A stretch of 34,522 nt of DNA, from positions 1 through 34,522 of IMG/VR virus record IMGVR_UViG_3300025164_001513. One strand, written 5' to 3'. A model generated the notes under the pieces. That model was not told the DNA's origin, searched no databases, and worked only from the letters and a program-made list of their open reading frames with translations. This document shows, piece by piece, positions 8,819 through 32,377 of the stretch. Numbering within the stretch: the first letter of the stretch is position 1; each line of letters begins with the position of its first letter. Made by a program: the position numbers and the translations under genes. Source of the DNA: a virus.

Positions 8819-9493
8819 ATGAAAATCTTAACAGAAATACAGGAAAAATTATTATTAGAACAAGCCTTAATAAAAGAAGCTTTGGACAGATTTAGAGATC
8901 TAAAAATTCCTATTGAGCGCTCTGTCATTGTAGAAAAGTGGCGAAAGCCAAATGTATCTGTCCCAGAAGGTACATTATATTATACTATTAATTACATCGA
9001 AATGTGTTGGTATAATTCAAACGGAAACCTTCATAGTTTTAATGATATGCCATCTAAAATTTCTTTTAATTCAAGCGTTTGGATAAATGTGGAATGGCAT
9101 AATAATGGAGAGCCATATCGTAAAAATTTTAAGTTTAATAAAGTTATAGTTCAATCTCATTTTTTAACTAATATTATGGGAATAGAATTTCATTGGTTAA
9201 ACAAAAGAGGAGAATTACACAGTTTTAATGATATGCCGGGTCTTATTAGTTCAGATGGTATTGTTTGGTATAATAAAGGACGAGCATATAGAAGAACTTA
9301 TTGTTTAAATACAGAATTACCATGTAGTATAAGTAAAAATGGAGATATGGTTTTTCAAAAAAACAAAGATGATTCACCTGAATACATAAAATACCCATTT
9401 TCAAAGAAAAATTATGCCCACGCTATATTAATTGGATTAAGAAATTATGAGAAATATGTTGACTGGCCAATTAGGGCAATGTTGACATTATAA
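8819..9493 (+). CDS. Repeat protein with two LHSFNDMP units
   Basis: Two copies of a unit with pattern W-(x)n-G-x-LHSFNDMP-x-x-I-(x)n-W are visible, with LHSFNDMP once in each half of the protein, each followed by a Trp-rich strand and G-x-x-YR. This recalls the MORN-like 'W-x-NGk-HR-x-DGPA' beta-hairpin repeats common in phages, whose role is unclear. The N-terminal 60 residues are helical. It starts three bases after dnaJ and is likely in the same transcript. Function unknown. Confidence 0.7.
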   Translation: MKILTEIQEKLLLEQALIKEALDRFRDLKIPIERSVIVEKWRKPNVSVPEGTLYYTINYIEMCWYNSNGNLHSFNDMPSKISFNSSVWINVEWHNNGEPYRKNFKFNKVIVQSHFLTNIMGIEFHWLNKRGELHSFNDMPGLISSDGIVWYNKGRAYRRTYCLNTELPCSISKNGDMVFQKNKDDSPEYIKYPFSKKNYAHAILIGLRNYEKYVDWPIRAMLTL

Positions 9494-9865: not shown

Positions 9866-10811
9866 TAAACAAAAAGCTTCATGGTGGATAGTAATCGCTT
9901 TCATGATTGTACCATTTAGTGTTAGTTTGGTAAGTGCACTCCATGTTGTTAGTTTTTTTGAGCTTAGTAATTACAAAGCAATTTCCATAGTTCTTGCTGT
10001 TGTTTTTGAGCTTGGGGCACTTTCCTCATTGGCTGGGATAGTTGCCATGGATAAAATAAATAAAGGTACAGTTTGGGCTATTTTTATCCTTTTAACAACG
10101 TTTCAAATGATGGGGAATACTTATTATTCCTACGATACCACTACAACAAAAATGATTACTGATTCTAATTTAATTAAGAATTTTACTGAATTGTTTGGGT
10201 TTAGCGTATATGATGCAAGTGATATAATATTTGTGAAAAGGATAATTGCAATATTGTCCGGAGCTATATTGCCGATTATATCTTTGTGTTTTCTTGATTT
10301 GCTTATGAAATATATTACAAGTTCAAATAAGGAAGAAAAATTAGAAAACAAAATCGAAGAACCAGCAAAATCTATTAAAACAGAAGAGGAACCTGTAAAA
10401 CCAATCGAAGAACCGGTAAAATTCATTAAAACAGAAGAGATACCTGTAAAATCAATAAAAGAGCCTTCAGAACCAATAAAACCAATAGAAAACACACAAG
10501 AAGATGGTTTTAATGAATATGTTAAAACCAAAAAAGAAAAACTTGAAAAAGATTGGATAAATTACTCTGAATTATTAAAAGTTCTCTATAAGGAAGGAAC
10601 GGCTCAAAATGGTGAAGAACTTCCTTCTTATAAGGATTTTGTTACTATGGTTGATGAAAAAAGATTTGATGATAGTGTTGTGAAAATATTTTTGACGATT
10701 TGTAATTACTTATCAATTACCAAAGTAAGCGGTGAACAAAAAATAGCATTAATGTCTTATGAAGATGCCAAAACTAAGTTGGAAGGTTATTTGGCGTTTG
10801 GAAATATTTAA
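9855..10811 (+). CDS. Four-helix membrane protein with Glu/Lys/Pro repeat linker
   Basis: Four hydrophobic segments lie near 10-30, 41-62, 71-91 and 128-150. They are followed by an imperfect repeat of EEPVK/SIKTEE-type units (about 167-212) and a C-terminal soluble domain (about 217-318). The charged Pro-rich linker would act as a flexible spacer between a membrane-bound part and a cytoplasmic domain. No family recognised. The neighbouring small membrane protein may be a partner. Confidence 0.7.
   Translation: MSDNKQKASWWIVIAFMIVPFSVSLVSALHVVSFFELSNYKAISIVLAVVFELGALSSLAGIVAMDKINKGTVWAIFILLTTFQMMGNTYYSYDTTTTKMITDSNLIKNFTELFGFSVYDASDIIFVKRIIAILSGAILPIISLCFLDLLMKYITSSNKEEKLENKIEEPAKSIKTEEEPVKPIEEPVKFIKTEEIPVKSIKEPSEPIKPIENTQEDGFNEYVKTKKEKLEKDWINYSELLKVLYKEGTAQNGEELPSYKDFVTMVDEKRFDDSVVKIFLTICNYLSITKVSGEQKIALMSYEDAKTKLEGYLAFGNI
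10353..10490 (+). repeat. Imperfect in-frame tandem repeat coding Glu/Lys/Pro linker
   Basis: Units such as AAAACAGAAGAG followed by ACCTGTAAAA recur in frame within the membrane protein gene and encode alternating IKTEE and PVK/PIK blocks. It is a coding repeat, not a CRISPR. Confidence 0.6.
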
Positions 10812-10815
10812 TCAT

Positions 10816-11097
10816 ATGAAAGATTACAAAGGATTAAGGTTAGAAGATTATATTGAAATTACTGGAGATTCTATTATCAATACAATCAATTCCTTTAATC
10901 TTGATTTTGACATAAATTCTTTGCAAATAAAAGAATTAATAAAAGAAAAAGCAGAAGAAGTTTTTAGAGAAAAAAAATTAATATCTGATTTATACGATTC
11001 TATTAAAAAAAGACCAGCCTTTAAAGAAGATATTATTGATTTTTTGTATAGAGATGCAGTTAGAAAAGTTTTGGTAGAAAAATATAATCATGGATAG
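10816..11097 (+). CDS. Hypothetical protein, 93 aa, helical
   Basis: Charged, mostly helical protein with no recognised domain. I chose ATG 10816, four bases after the previous stop, rather than an upstream in-frame ATG at 10765 that lies deep inside the preceding gene. Its end overlaps the next gene by eight bases. Confidence 0.65.
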   Translation: MKDYKGLRLEDYIEITGDSIINTINSFNLDFDINSLQIKELIKEKAEEVFREKKLISDLYDSIKKRPAFKEDIIDFLYRDAVRKVLVEKYNHG

Positions 11098-12638: not shown

Positions 12639-13208
12639 ATGATAACTCTACATTTTCCATATAAACTTGAGAGAAAAGTACTGTTTGAAAAAACAGGAAT
12701 TAATACTGAAGATGATATTAAACATAATTTCGAAAAAATGAACTCAAAAAATAAAATTGCTATTTTTATATCTTCTATTATAAGTATGTTTTTTGCATAC
12801 ATAACTACAGCATTTTTTGCTTTAAATTATAATTTAATATTTTGGAGCACGCCTTCCAGATTTATGTTTCTTATAATTTCTCTTATAGGAACCGCTCTTA
12901 CTTATTTTTACTGCAGTTATCAAGTTTCTATGCGGTATGATACTGAAAATAAACGTTATAATGAAATTGAAATAAAATCTTTAACTATAAACTGGTTTAA
13001 AAAGTTATTATCCATTTTTGTATTTTATTTTTTTACAGTATTCGGTTTTAGTTTAATTATTATATTTTGTACAATGAGTATAGATATAACAAAGATGAGT
13101 GATGGAGAAAGAGCAATAATGGGATTGTTTTTTTATATAGGAACAATAATATTTTGTTTGTTAGCTTATAATAATAATTTGAAATTCATTTTAAAAATAG
13201 AACAATGA
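12639..13208 (+). CDS. Hypothetical membrane protein, four hydrophobic segments
   Basis: Four hydrophobic stretches are visible near 40-64, 70-92, 122-143 and 162-180 of 189 residues, separated by short charged loops. No family recognised. It starts three bases after the preceding gene and overlaps the next by four bases (ATGA type). Confidence 0.65.
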   Translation: MITLHFPYKLERKVLFEKTGINTEDDIKHNFEKMNSKNKIAIFISSIISMFFAYITTAFFALNYNLIFWSTPSRFMFLIISLIGTALTYFYCSYQVSMRYDTENKRYNEIEIKSLTINWFKKLLSIFVFYFFTVFGFSLIIIFCTMSIDITKMSDGERAIMGLFFYIGTIIFCLLAYNNNLKFILKIEQ

Positions 13209-16453: not shown

Positions 16454-16897
16454 TTAGTTTTTAGTTCCTGGTTCTACGCTTAAATGCGAAAGAGTTATTA
16501 TATTATTTCTCTTTTTAATAAATTCTAATTTATTTAACATCCATTCTAAGGATTTTAAATGAGTGTTTTCTGTTGGTTTTAATAATGCTCTGTGTTGTTC
16601 TGTTGATTCCATAATTTCGCCGTCAAAGGTATATTCCTCATTATTTTCATACCAAATTTTTTCTTTTGAGTCATATAAAAATAAAGGGAACTGTTGGCCA
16701 TAACTTACTGTGATGTAGCTTTTGTCTGGAAAAGATTCACCCCAGCAATGGCTACCTATAAAATTCTCTTTATTGCGAACTTTTTCTAACCCATCCTCAT
16801 TAGTAAGTCTTTCTTCGTCAATCATCATTTCATCCATTATACCACATTCAAACAAATGTTTTCTTATGGCCTTTCTTATTTTATTTTCGTTAATCAT
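16454..16897 (-). CDS. Hypothetical protein with N-terminal IRKAIRKHL motif
   Basis: 147 residues. It opens MINENKIRKAIRKHLFE, an amphipathic segment like the C-terminal ends of the two long proteins encoded just upstream. The rest (WGESFPDKSYITVSYGQQFP; Trp/Tyr-rich) looks beta-rich and unknown. Its ATG overlaps the TGA of the preceding gene (ATGA), placing it in the same minus-strand operon. Confidence 0.7.
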   Translation of the reverse strand: MINENKIRKAIRKHLFECGIMDEMMIDEERLTNEDGLEKVRNKENFIGSHCWGESFPDKSYITVSYGQQFPLFLYDSKEKIWYENNEEYTFDGEIMESTEQHRALLKPTENTHLKSLEWMLNKLEFIKKRNNIITLSHLSVEPGTKN

Positions 16898-18591
16898 TTT
16901 TTTAATTCTTTTAATATTCGTATGTTAACACGTTTCATTATTTCATTTACAATAAAAGATTCAGTAAGTGATTGGTCATCCGGACCTAAATCTTCTATAT
17001 TTTCAGGTTCTTCTTCTTTTTCTTCTGGTTCTACTTTGAAAAGATATTTATCAGAAGGTATTGATACTTCTTTGCCGGCATTATCAATTATAATAAAATT
17101 ATCTAATCCTTGAGGTTCAAAAAATTCTTTCGGCTCTATTCTTTGTATTGTATATTCTTTTTTGCTTGAAAGATTTTTATATTCTTCTGGATTTATTTTC
17201 ATGAGTACAGGAAGATTGGATATTTTAACTTTTTCTCCAACTTGTATTCTTTTTGGAAATGCAATATCTCCTAATGTATCCGAATCAACTCCTTCTTCTT
17301 TCTCTGTTTCTAATGGAACCCATTCCCCTTTTGGATCTCCTGTTGCTATGTCAATTCCTGTTTGCTTAAAATATTCTAAAGGATTTTCTTTTTCTCCTTC
17401 TTCTCCAACTCCTTGTACTGAAAAAGCGTATTTATTATTGGTGAAATTTACTTTTATTCCTGTTTTGTCTTTAATGTATTTTTGAAAAGAGCCATTTTGA
17501 ACGTAAAATGTTATAACTTCTTCCATTCTTTTTTTTATTTGTCTCACTGTTCCGGCTGGTTTTCCTAAAATATCAGATATTTCAGATAAAATATGTCCTT
17601 GAAATAATAATTTTGCTACTTCTAAAAATGAAGGATTTATACCACCGTGTTTTATATTTGATTGTAAACGACTTATAATAAAATTTTGCATTACATCTGA
17701 TAATTCTTTTGCAGCTTCTTTTTGAGAAGTGCTTTTTTGTCCTTCTTCTCCAGTGATTCTATCACTTTTTGTTTGGTCAACATCTTCATCTGAATCTCCA
17801 AGTGGCTCATCTAATGAGCTTCCTTTTAATCCTCCACTTGATTGACCTAATGCTGTTTTTGCATACTTAGATTGAACTTGTGATTTCGCTCTTGAAGTAG
17901 CATTAAATATTATATTAGAAGGAAGTTGTCCTCCTCTACTTGGATTAAAGTTTTCTAAAGAATAATCAAAAGCATCTTCAATAGCACTTGAAACTATTGC
18001 TCGTAAATTCTCACCATCAATTGTCTTTCTGCCGGTTTTTTCAACAAAATTATAAATACCAGCATTTTTAGCAACAATTCTTGAAATTAATGAAGGTCTA
18101 TTTCCTCCACTACCTTTTTCAAAAGAAGTAAATTCATCTGGTTGAACCATTGCTATAAATAATACATCTCTAATATTTTTCTTTTCATTTTCAAGAGTGC
18201 TATCATCTTTATATAATGAAGCTAATACTGTTGTAATGAAATTAAACTGTTTAATCTTATGTCCTTCAGACATTTTGTTATAATTGAAATTATTTCCAAG
18301 TCTTCCAGTTGTTTTTGCTTTTTCTATTAATTCATATAAATCAACTAATTCATCTTCACTAAAATTTTTTGATAATTCATTAATTTTTGCACTTATATTA
18401 GAGAAATCCAAATCCAAATTAGACTCTTCTGGGTTCATCGTATCTACTTGGCCAACGTCTTCTTTGCTGTCTAATTCAGAACTGTCATCAAATTCTTCAT
18501 CATTAGCAATTTCTTCTTCTTTCAAGATTTTAAAAGTTCTACTTATGATGAACTTTTTTAAACTTTCAAATGTTAATTTTTTGTTTTCCAT
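16894..18591 (-). CDS. Sigma-70-like protein with regions 2 and 4 and C-terminal module
   Basis: 565 residues. A segment at about 195-245 (IEDAFDYSLENFNPSRGGQ... ATSRAKSQVQSKYAK) resembles sigma-70 region 2, including the 'F-D/N-P-x-R-G' step. A segment at about 300-360 (LSDVMQNFIISRLQ... LFQGHILSEISDILGKPAGTVRQIKKR) resembles the region 4 helix-turn-helix. Between them is a low-complexity Asp/Ser/Gly linker (SSLDEPLGDSDED). The C-terminal part at about 450-519 (VGEKVKIS... LSSKKEYTIQ... NAGKEVSIP) is shared with the neighbouring 802-residue protein. The tail has SFIVNEIMKRVNIRIL. A phage-specific sigma factor for host RNA polymerase is the likely role; a virion protein carrying a similar fold is the alternative. 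It starts one base after the 802-residue gene. Confidence 0.6.
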   Translation of the reverse strand: MENKKLTFESLKKFIISRTFKILKEEEIANDEEFDDSSELDSKEDVGQVDTMNPEESNLDLDFSNISAKINELSKNFSEDELVDLYELIEKAKTTGRLGNNFNYNKMSEGHKIKQFNFITTVLASLYKDDSTLENEKKNIRDVLFIAMVQPDEFTSFEKGSGGNRPSLISRIVAKNAGIYNFVEKTGRKTIDGENLRAIVSSAIEDAFDYSLENFNPSRGGQLPSNIIFNATSRAKSQVQSKYAKTALGQSSGGLKGSSLDEPLGDSDEDVDQTKSDRITGEEGQKSTSQKEAAKELSDVMQNFIISRLQSNIKHGGINPSFLEVAKLLFQGHILSEISDILGKPAGTVRQIKKRMEEVITFYVQNGSFQKYIKDKTGIKVNFTNNKYAFSVQGVGEEGEKENPLEYFKQTGIDIATGDPKGEWVPLETEKEEGVDSDTLGDIAFPKRIQVGEKVKISNLPVLMKINPEEYKNLSSKKEYTIQRIEPKEFFEPQGLDNFIIIDNAGKEVSIPSDKYLFKVEPEEKEEEPENIEDLGPDDQSLTESFIVNEIMKRVNIRILKELKK

Positions 18592-18592
18592 T

Positions 18593-21001
18593 TTATTTAT
18601 TTGTTTTTTTAAATCTTTCTACCATAAGCTCTCTTACAACTTTTCTTATATGATTTTCTGATAATTGTGATGACATTTCATAATTTTTAAGTAAATCATT
18701 TAATAAATCTCTATCTTTCTTTATTGCTGGATTCTCTAACCCTTCAAATCCGAAAAACTTTCTTAATCCCAATCTTAAAGAATTTATAAATTCTAATGTT
18801 TTGTCTGTTAATGATTTTTTTTCTTCTGCAGACTCTGCTGTTTTATATAGAGCTTGTTTTGTTTCTGGATTAAATAAATTTTGAGGCAATTCTATATTTT
18901 TTGCAAAAGCAACTTTAGAAAGTTGATCAATAATTTTTTCTGTATTTCCAACTAATTTCCCACCTGTATCCCATACATAACTAAACGGTACCTCTCTTAT
19001 TTTTTGATACTTATTTATAAGTCCACTATCCTTGTATGGGAGAGCAATTTTCCCATTTTCTTTTTCTACTTTTCCACCTTTGTGAGTATAAGGATTATAA
19101 GCGTTTACTATTTTTGGTGTACCATCTACATTTCTAAAATAAACTGTTCTTGTGTATTTTGGAACCATTCTACCATATTGCAACATAAGTCTTAGTGCTT
19201 CGATTAAAGCATCTTTGTATTTCGTACCTAATTCTTGTGGTAGTGCCGATGTTTTTGAAGTTGATTTAACATATCTATTAGAAAGATTTATTTCTTTTCC
19301 AGCATCATCAAGTATAGTGTATATATAAACCGTATTCCCGTTTTTATCGTTTTTGCCTGTTGCTTCTTTTTTTGTTACTGTGTATTCTTTTTTCGAATTA
19401 AGATTTTGAAATATTTCTGGACTTTTTGTTTTCTCCGGGTCTAATAATTCATTAACCCTTTCTAATCTAACTTTCTCTCCAATTTTTAAATCAGTACTTA
19501 ACATTTCAATAGAAATTTCATCAAGAATGTTATCAATTTCAGTTTTTGCTAAACGCATTGCTTCGCTAACAGGAACTCCTTCATACATGGCTTTTTCAGC
19601 TATGGAGCCTTCTCCTGGTTCGTATATTGCTTTAGTTAAATCCTCCGGCTTGTCCTTTGAAACGCTTTTATAAAATTCATTTGGATTTTTCAGAAATCTA
19701 GCACTTAGAGGAGAAATTTTTCCATCTTCTTCTTTTGCTCCAAAAAGCCCTATAGCATCCATTGCATCCTTAAATGTATATCTGAAAAAGGGTTTTTTTA
19801 CTATTTCACCATCTTTAGTTTTAACTTTAAATGTGAATGGACTAATTGTAACTTCATAATTTCCTTCAATAGCTTTTTCAGGATTTAATTTAGAATCAAC
19901 AACAAGAGGAGCAGTTTCTGCAACAAGTCTTCGTTCAACCTCTGTTCTATCCAATACGTAGTCACTTATGCTTCTTAATTGGTCAATTACTTTATGTTTA
20001 ACAACTTGAATAAACCAAGCTCCATAATTATTATATTTTTCCTGAGAATATTGTTTTTCTTTTGTTTGGTCTATAGCATGGTTTATACCATTTTCTGCAA
20101 ATACAATGAATTGACTATCCTTTGGATTTTTTTTCCTTTTAAGTGTTTGTGCAAGTATTGGTATTACAGCTTTTCCATAAAAATCTCTAATAATATGTTC
20201 AGCATTAGCTATTACTAAATTTTTATATGGCCAGTTACCTAATAAAATCTCTTCTATATCAATATTTTCATCACCATTTGCTGGTAATGGCCTACCTGAT
20301 AACATTCTTTGTAAAAATTCAAGTTGTTGTTTTCCTAAATCTGAAATCCCAACTAATTTTTTGCCATTTTCTTCAAATGTATGATAGCTAATTATGTTTT
20401 TATCTTTTATTTTTGGTTGCCATTTTGCTGATTGTACATTACCACCTTCTTGTCCAAATGTAACGGCGCTTCTTTTTGTTTTTTTATCTTTTTCTATAAT
20501 TGCATCAATTTCTTCTTGGCTCATTCCAGCTTTTTTAAGACGACTAATTTCAGCTGGACTAATAATTGGAGTTACTAATCTTCCATATTCTCTTGAAGCT
20601 CCTGGTAGTTTTTGTATAGGCTTCTTTTCGATAACAGTTCCTTCTACACCACCTTCTTCTTCTGGCCTTGCACCAAGTGTTTTTGGTTTGTATTCTCCTG
20701 AAAGTTTTAAATTCGCAGCTTCATATTGATTTATATTATTCAATACCATGGATGCTTTCATGTCTTTCGTCAGTACTCCTTCGGATTTCCCTTTTATTTC
20801 TAAAGCTCTTCCTTCATCACCCATTAAATCTCCAATATCTCCAAAAATATCATCATCATCTTCTTTTAAAAGTTTTTTTGGCTCTGTTTTTTTTGAGTTT
20901 ATAATGGTAGAATCGCTTTCATTAATGGTGTTTTGTGAAACTCCAGCTAATTTTGACATTCTTTGCAACTCATGAAGAAGATTTTCGTTTAATAAGGTCA
21001 T
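18593..21001 (-). CDS. Large sigma-region-2-like protein with shared C-terminal module
   Basis: 802 residues. The centre (about 265-345) has AEHIIRDFYGKAVIPIL, ENGINHAIDQ and NYGAWFIQVVKHKVIDQL, closely spaced like sigma-70 regions 2.1-2.3 ('G-x-x-x-A...Y-x-x-W-x-x-x-x-I'). No clear region 4 helix-turn-helix follows. The module at about 506-580 (IGEKVRLERV... LNSKKEYTVTKK... DDAGKEINLSNRYV) is the same as that at 450-519 of the 565-residue protein. The N-terminus (NENLLHELQRMSKLAGV) and the C-terminus (SENHIRKVVRELMVERF) hold amphipathic motifs. First gene of the minus operon, divergent from the PcfJ-like gene. A sigma-related regulator is suggested, but the length and extra domains leave other roles open. 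Confidence 0.55.
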   Translation of the reverse strand: MTLLNENLLHELQRMSKLAGVSQNTINESDSTIINSKKTEPKKLLKEDDDDIFGDIGDLMGDEGRALEIKGKSEGVLTKDMKASMVLNNINQYEAANLKLSGEYKPKTLGARPEEEGGVEGTVIEKKPIQKLPGASREYGRLVTPIISPAEISRLKKAGMSQEEIDAIIEKDKKTKRSAVTFGQEGGNVQSAKWQPKIKDKNIISYHTFEENGKKLVGISDLGKQQLEFLQRMLSGRPLPANGDENIDIEEILLGNWPYKNLVIANAEHIIRDFYGKAVIPILAQTLKRKKNPKDSQFIVFAENGINHAIDQTKEKQYSQEKYNNYGAWFIQVVKHKVIDQLRSISDYVLDRTEVERRLVAETAPLVVDSKLNPEKAIEGNYEVTISPFTFKVKTKDGEIVKKPFFRYTFKDAMDAIGLFGAKEEDGKISPLSARFLKNPNEFYKSVSKDKPEDLTKAIYEPGEGSIAEKAMYEGVPVSEAMRLAKTEIDNILDEISIEMLSTDLKIGEKVRLERVNELLDPEKTKSPEIFQNLNSKKEYTVTKKEATGKNDKNGNTVYIYTILDDAGKEINLSNRYVKSTSKTSALPQELGTKYKDALIEALRLMLQYGRMVPKYTRTVYFRNVDGTPKIVNAYNPYTHKGGKVEKENGKIALPYKDSGLINKYQKIREVPFSYVWDTGGKLVGNTEKIIDQLSKVAFAKNIELPQNLFNPETKQALYKTAESAEEKKSLTDKTLEFINSLRLGLRKFFGFEGLENPAIKKDRDLLNDLLKNYEMSSQLSENHIRKVVRELMVERFKKTNK

Positions 21002-21124: not shown

Positions 21125-23182
21125 ATGGTAATGAAACAACATTCATTTTTGGTAGATATCGGCAAAACTATGGTCGATACAAATAAAATAAGCTCAGAAG
21201 GAAAAGACAGTCAAAGAATGTACTGCCATTGCGGTAATAAAAAAGAGCTAAAAAGTAAAGCGAGAAGATTGCTTGTAAAAAAACACGACACTACTGTTGA
21301 AGACAAGCATAGTATTGAAACAATTAAATGTGATAAGTGCGGAAGCGTTTATGACAGTAAAAATCGTTTATTTCTTATTATTCCAGATGAAGATGAAATT
21401 TATAAAGTTTCATTTTTAGTAGAAGAAAAAGGAAAAACAATAACTCTTTTAAGACAAAAAACATTTGTTAGATACGATTCTTCTACTGATAAATTAAATG
21501 ATAATATTGTCAGAACCGATTCAATTAAATTTGATAGAAGCAAAAACAAAACTGAAATTTTCTTAGAAAAGCCATTACTTGATAAAATATCAGTAAATAA
21601 TAAGCAGAATGATGTGAATAACATTACGGAAGAAGTAGGTCTTTCAAAAATAGGAAGATTAGAACATTTTTTCCAATTTTATGATTTTGCTTCTTATGGT
21701 GGTCTTATAAATATATTCAATTTTTTTAACAAAATTGATGTTGTAGTAACTGACCTTGACGATATTAAGAAATTGATTCCTCAAATAAGTTATGCTTATA
21801 ATAATCATGATGTTTTTGAAAAAACAGATGAAATAACCGGAGAGTCAATAACTTATAATAAAGTTGATAGCGGTTTTGGAGACGGAAAAAAAGAAGAGAA
21901 AAAATTAAATATAGGTGGGTATTTATCCAGATATGTTGAATTGTCTAAAATTTTTCTTTGTGTATCTGACTTCCAGAGTATTTCAACAATATTACTTACT
22001 AAAGGACAAGTGTTTTTTAAAGAATTTATCCACAGTAAAAACATTTTATCTTCTCAAGTTTATGAATTGTTTGAAGCAACATCTCCTACTAAAATATTGG
22101 AAATTTCTATGAATTGCGATATTAACGGTATGTTAAAAGGAAGTGGAGATAATGATACTAAGGAAGTTGCTAAAAAAGTCGTTAAAATATCAAAAACCAT
22201 AGAAGATAGTCCTAACTATTTAAAGGTTAGTCCTTTGATTTATAAACACATAAGCACTCCACAGGATATGGAAATTTTGCTTAGTATATATCGTAAAAAA
22301 TATATTTCCAAAACTGATATTGAAACTTTGTTTCAAAGTTATGATACTGAGCGTATTTATAAATTCTACAGAAATTTAGAAAAACAAAGAATTCAAGATA
22401 ATGCCAGTTTTACAATCAAAAACATTAAACACATCTTAGATAGAAATATAGATGATGTTGTAAAAGGTGGCAATTCTGATTATTTGCATTTGTATACAGA
22501 TACTATTAACTCAATGAGGCTGTTGGAGCTTTCTGATAATTATATTTATCGTATTAAAAGTAATGTCGAGTTAAAAACTATACATGATGACCTTGCAGCG
22601 AGATATGGAGCTATTAAAGATGCTAAAAAAGCAGAATTTTATAAAAAAGCAGCTAAGGAATTGTCAAACATAAATACAATTGTTGGCGATGTTGAATTGA
22701 CAGTTATTCCAACTCTTGAGGACTTAAATAAAGAAGGTATGCTTATGAATCATTGTATTTATACATACCTTGATCGAATTGTTAATAGAGATTATATGGC
22801 TGTCCATGTACAACATATAATTTCAAATGAAAGAGCAACTTTGGGTTTATATCGTAAAAATGGAGGCCTTGAATTTGATCAGTTAAAAGGTTATCGTAAC
22901 TCAAGAGCCTCAAGAGAGTTAATTGAAGGAGTACTGGAGTTTATACAAATTAACAAAATACAATCTTCTTCCAGAAACAGTGATTTAACACCTTCTGCCG
23001 GAAGCATAACCAGAATGCATGATTATTTAAGTGACGAAGAAGTCATGAAAATAAGAAAAGAAAGAGAAAAAAAGGAAAATATTGAGATGGAAAAAGCAAA
23101 ATCAGAAGGAAAAGAGTATGTTCCTAAGTATTCAAAGTCACATCAAAAAAATAAAAAAGGATTTTTTGGATTATTTGCTTAA
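21125..23182 (+). CDS. PcfJ-like protein with N-terminal zinc ribbon
   Basis: 685 residues. The N-terminus has a zinc-ribbon pattern (C34-H-C36 and C69-DK-C72). The C-terminal part carries the PcfJ-family core: LEDLNKEGMLMNHC (531-544), RATLGLYR (570-577) and QLKGYRNSRAS (586-596). PcfJ-like proteins were named from conjugative plasmids and are common in phages and plasmids; their biochemical role is not established. A long middle region (about 150-520) is helical and unassigned, and the tail is highly basic/charged (MEKAKSEGKEYVPKYSKSH). It has the best promoter in the window, and so is probably well expressed. ATG at 21131 is an alternative start. Confidence 0.78.
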   Translation: MVMKQHSFLVDIGKTMVDTNKISSEGKDSQRMYCHCGNKKELKSKARRLLVKKHDTTVEDKHSIETIKCDKCGSVYDSKNRLFLIIPDEDEIYKVSFLVEEKGKTITLLRQKTFVRYDSSTDKLNDNIVRTDSIKFDRSKNKTEIFLEKPLLDKISVNNKQNDVNNITEEVGLSKIGRLEHFFQFYDFASYGGLINIFNFFNKIDVVVTDLDDIKKLIPQISYAYNNHDVFEKTDEITGESITYNKVDSGFGDGKKEEKKLNIGGYLSRYVELSKIFLCVSDFQSISTILLTKGQVFFKEFIHSKNILSSQVYELFEATSPTKILEISMNCDINGMLKGSGDNDTKEVAKKVVKISKTIEDSPNYLKVSPLIYKHISTPQDMEILLSIYRKKYISKTDIETLFQSYDTERIYKFYRNLEKQRIQDNASFTIKNIKHILDRNIDDVVKGGNSDYLHLYTDTINSMRLLELSDNYIYRIKSNVELKTIHDDLAARYGAIKDAKKAEFYKKAAKELSNINTIVGDVELTVIPTLEDLNKEGMLMNHCIYTYLDRIVNRDYMAVHVQHIISNERATLGLYRKNGGLEFDQLKGYRNSRASRELIEGVLEFIQINKIQSSSRNSDLTPSAGSITRMHDYLSDEEVMKIRKEREKKENIEMEKAKSEGKEYVPKYSKSHQKNKKGFFGLFA

Positions 23183-27069: not shown

Positions 27070-27516
27070 ATGTCAAATGCTATTTTGAAAGAAAAGCAAG
27101 AAAAAGTTAAGGATACACCATGGACAAACCTTGGGATAAAGGTGGACTTGTGTTCATTTTTGACGAGAAAAGTGTTGTTTGAGAAATACATTTCTCAAAA
27201 AGCCAAGGAAACAGAAATGAAAGAATTTTTTATTTCGAAAATTGATGGGTGTGAATTATATACAAACTCAGAGTACAAAGATTACATATTTTACATTAAA
27301 AATATCAATGGAAATAATGAGATTTTAATGGAAAAATATGAAAAAAACAAGACGTTTTATATAAAATATACCAACTTTTGGTCAGTTTTTGAGAGCTTGT
27401 ACCTACTTGAATACTCTGAGATTCAATCATTTACACAGATTACCCTTGAAGATGGTCTAAAATCTAACGGTTATAAAACTTCCATTGTTGCCGAAGAGTT
27501 TGGTTACCAGCCTTGA
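27070..27516 (+). CDS. Hypothetical protein whose 3' end runs into the CRISPR-like array
   Basis: 148 residues, no family recognised. The body (residues 1-125) looks like a normal small alpha/beta protein. The last 23 residues are encoded by the first array repeat (LEDGLKSNGYK), spacer 1 and the first bases of repeat 2, whose CCTTGA supplies the TGA stop. The gene follows the MazG-like gene by two bases. It may be a gene truncated by array formation, or a native gene whose tail provided the first repeat. Confidence 0.6.
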   Translation: MSNAILKEKQEKVKDTPWTNLGIKVDLCSFLTRKVLFEKYISQKAKETEMKEFFISKIDGCELYTNSEYKDYIFYIKNINGNNEILMEKYEKNKTFYIKYTNFWSVFESLYLLEYSEIQSFTQITLEDGLKSNGYKTSIVAEEFGYQP

Positions 27517-27679
27517 AGATGGTCTAAAATCTAACGGTTATAAAACAATACCAGGGAAATATACCACTGCCAACTTCCTTGAAGATGGTCTAAAATCTAA
27601 CGGTTATAAAACATGGAGCAATGGCGAAACAAACCAAATTATACCTTGAAGATGGTCTAAAATCTAACGGTTATAAAAC
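27444..27679. CRISPR. Four-repeat CRISPR-like mini-array
   Basis: Four identical 36-base repeats, CCTTGAAGATGG...GGTTATAAAAC, lie at 27444-27479, 27511-27546, 27577-27612 and 27644-27679. They are separated by three unrelated spacers of 31, 30 and 31 bases (27480-27510, 27547-27576, 27613-27643). Unit lengths of 66-67 bases are not multiples of three, so this is not a protein-coding tandem repeat. Repeat perfection, constant 36-base length and unique 30-31-base spacers fit a CRISPR. Spacer GC (14/31, 12/30, 11/31) is above the surrounding AT-rich DNA. On the minus strand the repeat would read GTTTTATAACCG...CATCTTCAAGG. Orientation, type and leader are not determined; AT-rich DNA follows on the right side. 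No cas gene is in the window. Confidence 0.88.
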
Positions 27680-31001: not shown

Positions 31002-32125
31002 GTGGGAAAGCTATAAGTATTGAAAAATTTATTTTTAATGCAAAACAAATTCATGGAGAAAGGTACGATTATTCAAAATTTGAATATGTTAATTCCTCAG
31101 TAAAATCCACAATTATATGTGAGAAACATGGCGAATTTTTACAATCTCCAAGAAATCACATGAAAGGATATAATTGTAAGAAATGTATGTACGAAGGAGA
31201 AAGAACATTACCAAGTAAACATACTTTAGAATCATTTATTATTAAATCAAATGAAGTTCATGATAATAAATACGATTATTCAAAAGTGGTATATAAAAAT
31301 AATAAACAACCAATTATTATAATTTGTCCAGAGCATGGAGAATTTAATCAAAGACCTGATAGTCATTTAAGTGGAAGGGGTTGTATTTATTGTTCAGGAA
31401 CGTATCAATATGCAAAAGAAGATTTTATAAAAAAATCTAATGAAAAACATAATAATAAATACGATTATTCTGAAGTTTTATACACAAAAAATGATAATAA
31501 AGTAACAATAATTTGTAATAAACATGGAAAGTTCAGTCAATTAGCCAAAGACCATTTAAGAGGACGCGGATGTGACATATGTAGTGGTGGATATGTTGGA
31601 ACTAAAGAAATATTTTTGGCAAAATCTTTTGAAGTTCATGGAAATACTTATAATTATGATAATGTAAAATATGTAAATAACCAAACAAAAGTAGATATAA
31701 TTTGTAATAAACATGGTATTTTCAAACAAAGGCCAGCAATGCATTTATTTGGAAATGGTTGTCCAAAGTGTTCAAATTTTTCAAAAGGAGAAATTAAAAT
31801 TACTAAAATTTTAGAAGAAAAAAATATAATATTTACATATCAAAAAACTTTTGATGATTGTAAAAATGTTTTTAAATTACCTTTCGATTTTTATTTACCA
31901 GATTATAATACTTGTGTAGAATTTGATGGAGCTCAACATTTTAAAGCTTTTAAATACTTTGGTGGTGAAAAAACATTTAAAGCAAGGCAACTAAACGACC
32001 AAATAAAAAACGAATACTGCAAAAACAATAACATTCCATTATTAAGAATTCCTTACTGGGACTTTAAGAACATTGAGACTATATTGACTGATTATTTAAA
32101 GTCAATCCTTATCAACTCTAATTAA
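30998..32125 (+). CDS. DUF723-repeat endonuclease (Vsr/EDxHD-like), copy B
   Basis: 375 residues, same architecture as the nuclease gene at 15296. Four zinc-binding repeats (about 10-64, 77-133, 142-196, 205-259) with KYDYS, IICxKHGxF and GxGCxxCSG, then a nuclease domain with PFDFYLPDYNT (295-305) and VEFDGAQHF (307-315). Preceded by an overlapping RHH gene. Its 3' end overlaps a convergent unknown gene by 24 bases. Probable mobile homing endonuclease of the same family as copy A, with considerable divergence outside motifs. Confidence 0.82.
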   Translation: MSGKAISIEKFIFNAKQIHGERYDYSKFEYVNSSVKSTIICEKHGEFLQSPRNHMKGYNCKKCMYEGERTLPSKHTLESFIIKSNEVHDNKYDYSKVVYKNNKQPIIIICPEHGEFNQRPDSHLSGRGCIYCSGTYQYAKEDFIKKSNEKHNNKYDYSEVLYTKNDNKVTIICNKHGKFSQLAKDHLRGRGCDICSGGYVGTKEIFLAKSFEVHGNTYNYDNVKYVNNQTKVDIICNKHGIFKQRPAMHLFGNGCPKCSNFSKGEIKITKILEEKNIIFTYQKTFDDCKNVFKLPFDFYLPDYNTCVEFDGAQHFKAFKYFGGEKTFKARQLNDQIKNEYCKNNNIPLLRIPYWDFKNIETILTDYLKSILINSN

Positions 32126-32377
32126 ATTAAAAGAATCCCATAATGACGGTAATCCTACTCTATCATTTGTAGTAAACCATAATATTGTTACTTCGTTCCA
32201 TTCTTTATCACAGGAAAATACAGTCCCTAAACTTTCTTTAAATTCACGCCAATAATAATAAGGCTCTATAATTTTAGTATTTATTCTAACGGTATCACCT
32301 TTTTTAAAATAATAACTTTTTTCTATAAGTACTATACGTTTTAGTACTGAAATTTCATCGTGATTAATTTTTTTCAT
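32102..32377 (-). CDS. Hypothetical protein, 91 aa
   Basis: A beta-rich protein (KGDTVRINTKIIEPYYYW; VTILWFTTNDRVGLPSLW) that may be an SH3-like or KOW-like barrel. Not recognised. Its last 24 bases overlap the nuclease copy B in the opposite sense. Confidence 0.6.
   Translation of the reverse strand: MKKINHDEISVLKRIVLIEKSYYFKKGDTVRINTKIIEPYYYWREFKESLGTVFSCDKEWNEVTILWFTTNDRVGLPSLWDSFNLIRVDKD

Follow-up and report, generated by a model that had tools for sequence, protein, structure and literature searches.

Candidate capsid-packaged, sigma-like proteins encoded by a compact operon of a large uncultured phage

Introduction

Complete RNA polymerases are injected by N4 and phiKZ, and T4 injects Alt, an enzyme that modifies the polymerase of its host; sigma factors encoded by phages are likewise known. 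In the open-access papers searched we found no account of a sigma factor packaged in virions, reports elsewhere being possible, and passages on the virions of jumbo phages likewise mention none.

In phage T4 the head protease gp21 cleaves at the motif L/I-x-E, the internal proteins are targeted by propeptides of 10-19 residues, and both termini of Alt undergo processing (PMC9026906). Here we describe an operon within a 34,522-nucleotide stretch of viral DNA (IMG/VR record IMGVR_UViG_3300025164_001513; the window in what follows) whose products resemble the T4 internal proteins IPI-IPIII and Alt: the short tags at their termini are bounded by L/I-x-E and, as in Alt, occur at both ends. The tagged companions of these products include an ADP-ribosyltransferase (ART-PolyVal), comparable to the Alt that T4 packages, and a second phage with the same kind of tag, G031, has a T4-type protease and capsid gene. 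Unlike in T4, the tag sequence is different, the cargo is sigma-like and packaging is predicted from sequence.

Other known systems offer partial parallels. As in phage sigma factors (the ECF type, for example that of phiEco32, RpoD-like proteins and T4 gp55), a putative region 2 is followed by region 4 in the 565-aa product, and binding to the host core enzyme would be expected, whereas proteins of 565 and 802 aa are far larger, carry an extra shared module and terminal tags, and give distant profile matches only. The system would resemble the virion RNA polymerases of N4 and phiKZ-like phages in acting on transcription from the particle, straight after entry; those polymerases are whole enzymes, whereas the window system would use that of the host. 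Polyvalent proteins (Iyer et al. 2017, PMC5512222) are also injected multidomain cargo, and a tagged ART-PolyVal protein is present in the window's virus; the paper nowhere uses the word 'sigma'.

The operon and its source

The window, a piece of a large uncultured phage, corresponds to positions 45629-80150 of a 106-kb IMG/VR contig (G001) at 99.997% identity, and a second contig of 74 kb from the same virus adds about 14 kb. Family-library scans that covered part of these contigs, which hold an incomplete genome, recognised no head or tail genes. The operon lies on the minus strand and comprises three genes:

18593..21001, minus strand: 802-aa protein gene, first in the operon (ORF)
16894..18591, minus strand: 565-aa sigma-like protein gene, second in the operon (ORF; TIGR02937 E 1e-4 in the contig search)
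16454..16897, minus strand: 147-aa protein gene, third in the operon (start overlapping the 565-aa stop)

A single base separates the 802-aa gene from the 565-aa gene. The original prediction had described the adjacent 565- and 802-residue ORFs, which were recovered at the same coordinates; the third gene and the terminal tags were absent from its list. Family-library scans assigned the 147-aa protein to no known family. TATAAAT, considered as a T4-like late promoter, precedes the 802-aa gene and one more of the tagged genes; because it also lies upstream of ten other genes, we make no such claim.

Other features of the window include a gene for a PcfJ-like protein (21125-23182, Pfam E 1e-11), transcribed divergently from the operon, and a dUTPase (1303-2661) that carries a LAGLIDADG endonuclease segment at its N-terminus or as an insertion, probably an intein or a related element. 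Self-match revealed tandemly repeated units of about 67 bases at 27444-27679.

Terminal tags in the window's virus

All three operon proteins have short amphipathic helices at their termini, with L/I-x-E at or near the helix ends. The tags are as follows, slashes marking their boundaries:

20918..20992, minus strand: 802-aa N-terminal tag, LLNE / NLLHELQRMSKLAGVSQNTINE / S (type present in two other proteins)
18617..18664, minus strand: 802-aa C-terminal tag, QLSE / NHIRKVVRELMVE (PSSM trained on another phage, p 0.008)
18517..18579, minus strand: 565-aa N-terminal tag, KLTFESLKKFIISRTFKILKE / E (PSSM 9.7, p 0.0007)
16906..16968, minus strand: 565-aa C-terminal tag, SLTE / SFIVNEIMKRVNIRILKE (PSSM 10.3, p 0.0006)
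16847..16894, minus strand: 147-aa N-terminal tag, MINE / NKIRKAIRKHLFE / C (PSSM 11.5, p 0.0002)

L/I-x-E sites occur at the 802-aa N-terminus, at both ends of the 565-aa protein, at the 147-aa N-terminus and at the start of the 802-aa C-terminal tag, which itself ends in M-V-E rather than L/I-x-E. Two other proteins of this virus (G001), one of 990 aa and one a tRNA-nucleotidyltransferase fusion, begin with the N-terminal tag type of the 802-aa protein; the type recurred nowhere else, and in none of 200 shuffles. Tags of the targeting type recur among unrelated proteins of this virus, including two putative ADP-ribosyltransferases, one of them matching ART-PolyVal at E 5e-18. Since both large operon proteins bear terminal tags, both are predicted to be packaged in the head.

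The nucleotidyltransferase fusion (L011 3252-5012; G001 41252-43012) also has an internal tag, SITEARKVVRNILLE, between its two domains, and a cut there by a head protease would separate them. The tagged 990-aa protein (L011 12-2984) contains a segment that, judged by eye, resembles the PcfJ-like protein. Some 33 of the 138 ORFs of this virus, mostly small ones, have close to one terminus a short motif resembling TREVLIEK or ERKVLFEK, which is distinct from the capsid-type tags and might serve as a further targeting signal; in the window it occurs at 8819-9493, 10759-11097, 12639-13208, 27070-27516 and 32102-32377, with many more instances in G001 (L009-L014).

An independent test of the tags in a second phage

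The tag patterns for the window's virus were written after its sequences had been seen; a PSSM trained on G031, with the window's virus left out of the training, is independent of them. G031 is a second huge phage contig (210 kb; L147-L157), reached through a ClpB-like gene, with a head module of T4 type that contains a portal, a head maturation protease and a gp23-like capsid protein. Of its 225 N-termini, 17 fit a strict core regular expression, which matched no internal block out of 1244; the PSSM refined on these N-termini matched 40 N-termini against three internal blocks. The T4 gp21 cleavage motif L/I-x-E ends 36 of these 40 tags, and five of the eight genes between the head protease and the scaffold/capsid genes are tagged (p 0.005). 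The roughly 40 N-terminally tagged proteins of G031 form a large candidate set of injected proteins; no Pfam family was found in the ten that were scanned.

When the 276 termini of the window's virus were scored with the G031 PSSM, ranks 4-6 went to the N-terminus of the 147-aa protein and the two ends of the 565-aa protein; above them stood the two proteins resembling ADP-ribosyltransferases and a short ORF of doubtful status. Fisher combination over four operon termini (147-aa N, 565-aa N, 565-aa C and 802-aa C) gave 3e-9. By analogy with G031, a gp21-like protease is assumed in the window's virus.

Sigma factor character of the 565-aa protein

Two segments of the 565-aa protein bear on its relation to sigma factors:

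17524..17637, minus strand: sigma region-4 HTH, residues 319-356 (Pfam Sigma70_r4 and region-4 profile)
17863..18093, minus strand: sigma region-2-like fold, residues 167-243 (AlphaFold2 and structural alignment)

Sigma70_r4 matches residues 331-355 at E 0.0011, which is under the Pfam gathering score, and a home-made region-4 profile ranks the protein second among the 138 ORFs. TIGR02937, an NCBIfam model extending from region 2 through region 4, matches residues 194-356 at E 0.024, and in the search of contig G001 the 565-aa gene was the only place that it matched. With Sigma70_r4 giving no match in the 802-aa protein (Pfam), the region-4 HTH is confined to the shorter protein, as originally predicted.

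For region 2, the Pfam family (PF04542) gave no match in the 565-aa protein, and a whole-sigma profile placed neither it nor the 802-aa protein among the top hmmsearch hits. A single-sequence AlphaFold2 model of the 565-aa protein was mostly poor, residues 167-243 reaching a pLDDT of about 70, which is low-confidence. This low-confidence part aligned with region 2 of Escherichia coli sigma70 over 64 residues at 2.2 A with a Z of 6.2, a value under the 8 below which the alignment tool warns that a match can reflect a common structural arrangement. Nearly all of the top 40 matches listed for this segment were sigma factors, and many Foldseek matches to the model were also sigma factors, yet with non-significant E-values. 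Our support for region 2 comes from the uniform list of sigma factors, the order of region 2 then region 4 and the independent profiles, and not from the Z value by itself. The 565-aa protein is thus credibly sigma-like, its region 2 being a model-based assignment.

The 802-aa protein and the shared module

In the 802-aa protein one segment recalls sigma region 2, and each of the two proteins contains one copy of a common module:

19967..20101, minus strand: weak sigma region-2-like segment of the 802-aa protein, residues 301-345 (NCBIfam E 0.15; profile ranks)
19268..19489, minus strand: shared module of the 802-aa protein, residues 505-578 (35% identical to the 565-aa copy, E 5e-7)
17041..17247, minus strand: shared module of the 565-aa protein, residues 449-517 (same alignment)

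The only NCBIfam match of the 802-aa protein is to a sigma factor, over residues 301-345 at E 0.15. A region-2 profile ranked it first of the 138 ORFs with hhalign (residues 326-345, E 0.014) and second with hmmsearch (iE 1.1), a weak match whose register is nevertheless correct (WFIQVVKHKVIDQLR). Against the region-4 profile it gave only a weak 14-column match at residues 158-171, N-terminal to the region-2 segment. The AlphaFold2 model was unusable and Foldseek returned only noise on it. The 802-aa protein is possibly a sigma factor. Region 2 had originally been predicted in both proteins: the claim survives for the 565-aa protein as a low-confidence fold model with no Pfam match, and is reduced to a weak match in the 802-aa protein. 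Redirection of the host RNA polymerase, part of the same prediction, is supported for the 565-aa protein through its sigma-like character, as judged from sequence and model, and is only possible for its neighbour.

The module aligns over 75 aa, with tblastn giving E 3.8e-7, and its sequence suggests a small SH3-like barrel. The C-terminal module that the original prediction had noticed is therefore real, since the two copies align at 35% identity and E 5e-7; its further proposal of a duplicated or split sigma factor does not follow from it, the shared part being this module of about 75 aa and not a sigma core.

Tagged ECF sigma factors in other phages

The combination of a tag with an undisputed sigma factor does occur in other phages. 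G031 encodes a full-strength ECF sigma factor (TIGR02937 E 6e-26) that begins with MEKLIKKILKEELLKEN, and a relative in another contig, 55% identical, begins with MEKSIKKILKEYTIKKVIKEE at a TTG start codon. A third tagged ECF sigma factor, L182, begins with MRNIIKKILREE; it was found with an ECF region 2 pattern that mostly matched a different protein family of about 650 aa. On the N-terminus PSSM the phage ECF sigma factors score 24 to 28, against -1.8 to -16.6 for 13 cellular relatives, all with ordinary, untagged starts; these 13 include five from Bacteroidota, among which are the best matches. The simplest history would be that phages acquired an ECF sigma factor and then added the tag as a new N-terminus. 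These proteins are not close homologues of the window proteins.

Searches for relatives of the operon proteins

Relatives of the 565- and 802-aa proteins were found neither by tblastn against 50,697 phage records nor in 50 records picked through the ClpB-like or another shared gene, and several sets of patterns run against IMG/VR returned the same virus only. Widening the pattern scan with the 565-aa core and randomly substituted copies of it, used for the choice of patterns only, yielded nothing new. One weak match among the 50 records fell within a ClpP gene and was put down to chance; weak tblastn matches (E 2-9) of the 802-aa core to a crAss-like phage and others were also rejected. For locating close relatives, the ClpB-like gene was of little use.

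A packaging and injection model, and its alternatives

We give about an even chance to the reading that the operon encodes capsid cargo, namely the 565-aa sigma factor and a co-packaged 802-aa protein, injected to redirect the host polymerase. In the pathway that we infer, the operon would be expressed late in infection, the 565-aa protein would be a divergent sigma factor of two domains (sigma2-sigma4), and the 802-aa protein would be its co-packaged partner, possibly with a second, degenerate region 2. The terminal amphipathic helices would recruit the proteins into the prohead core, as capsid-targeting sequences do in T4, and the prohead protease would cleave at L/I-x-E and so free the cargo. 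At infection the cargo proteins would pass into the cell with the DNA, where the injected sigma factor would bind the core of the host RNA polymerase and direct it to the early promoters of the phage, ahead of any phage gene expression. Because packaging in the head and injection are possible, a virion protein and a sigma factor are not mutually exclusive descriptions of the same product.

It is unlikely, while still a serious competitor, that the proteins are capsid cargo and not functional sigma factors, their HTH and helices serving DNA binding or condensation, counter-defence or the structure of the prohead core. The tags are strong and the evidence for sigma function is weaker, with a Pfam match under the gathering score, non-significant Foldseek values and a weak match in the 802-aa protein; against this, independent sequence profiles and the structural alignment both indicate a sigma factor with its regions in the right order, and true sigma factors bear the same tags in other phages. 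We consider it distinctly improbable that the products are sigma factors of the middle or late phase, with unusual extra domains, which are made during infection, act inside the cell and are never packaged, their terminal helices binding something else, such as a partner protein, a compartment of the phage or the polymerase. Many large phages do encode unpackaged sigma factors, and the tags are sequence predictions here, but they are common to unrelated proteins, end in the motif of a head protease and in G031 are concentrated in the head module.

The least probable of these alternatives, which we rate as very unlikely, is a split sigma factor in which the 802-aa protein would contribute region 2 and the 565-aa protein region 4, paired through the shared module. 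The adjacency of the genes, the module common to both, the presence of region 4 in the shorter protein only and the rank of the 802-aa protein as the best hhalign region-2 match among 138 ORFs all fit such an arrangement, but the 565-aa protein apparently has a region 2 of its own in the structural model, and the match in the 802-aa protein is weak (E 0.014 to 1.1).

Implications

Extending the packaging and injection model beyond this operon, we tentatively propose, at slightly under an even chance, that huge phages, whose hosts are probably Bacteroidota, use cleavable T4-like targeting tags to load sigma factors into the capsid and then inject them, so that the host RNA polymerase would be reprogrammed from the outset, with at least two unrelated types having been recruited; the types would be the tagged ECF sigma factors of three contigs and the giant, double-tagged pair of the window. 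If this is true, phages would have, besides injected polymerases and polymerase-modifying enzymes, a third and much cheaper solution, an injected factor that chooses promoters before the phage's own genes are read. The tags would also provide a sequence rule by which the candidate injected cargo of huge uncultured phages, most of it without annotation, can be listed.
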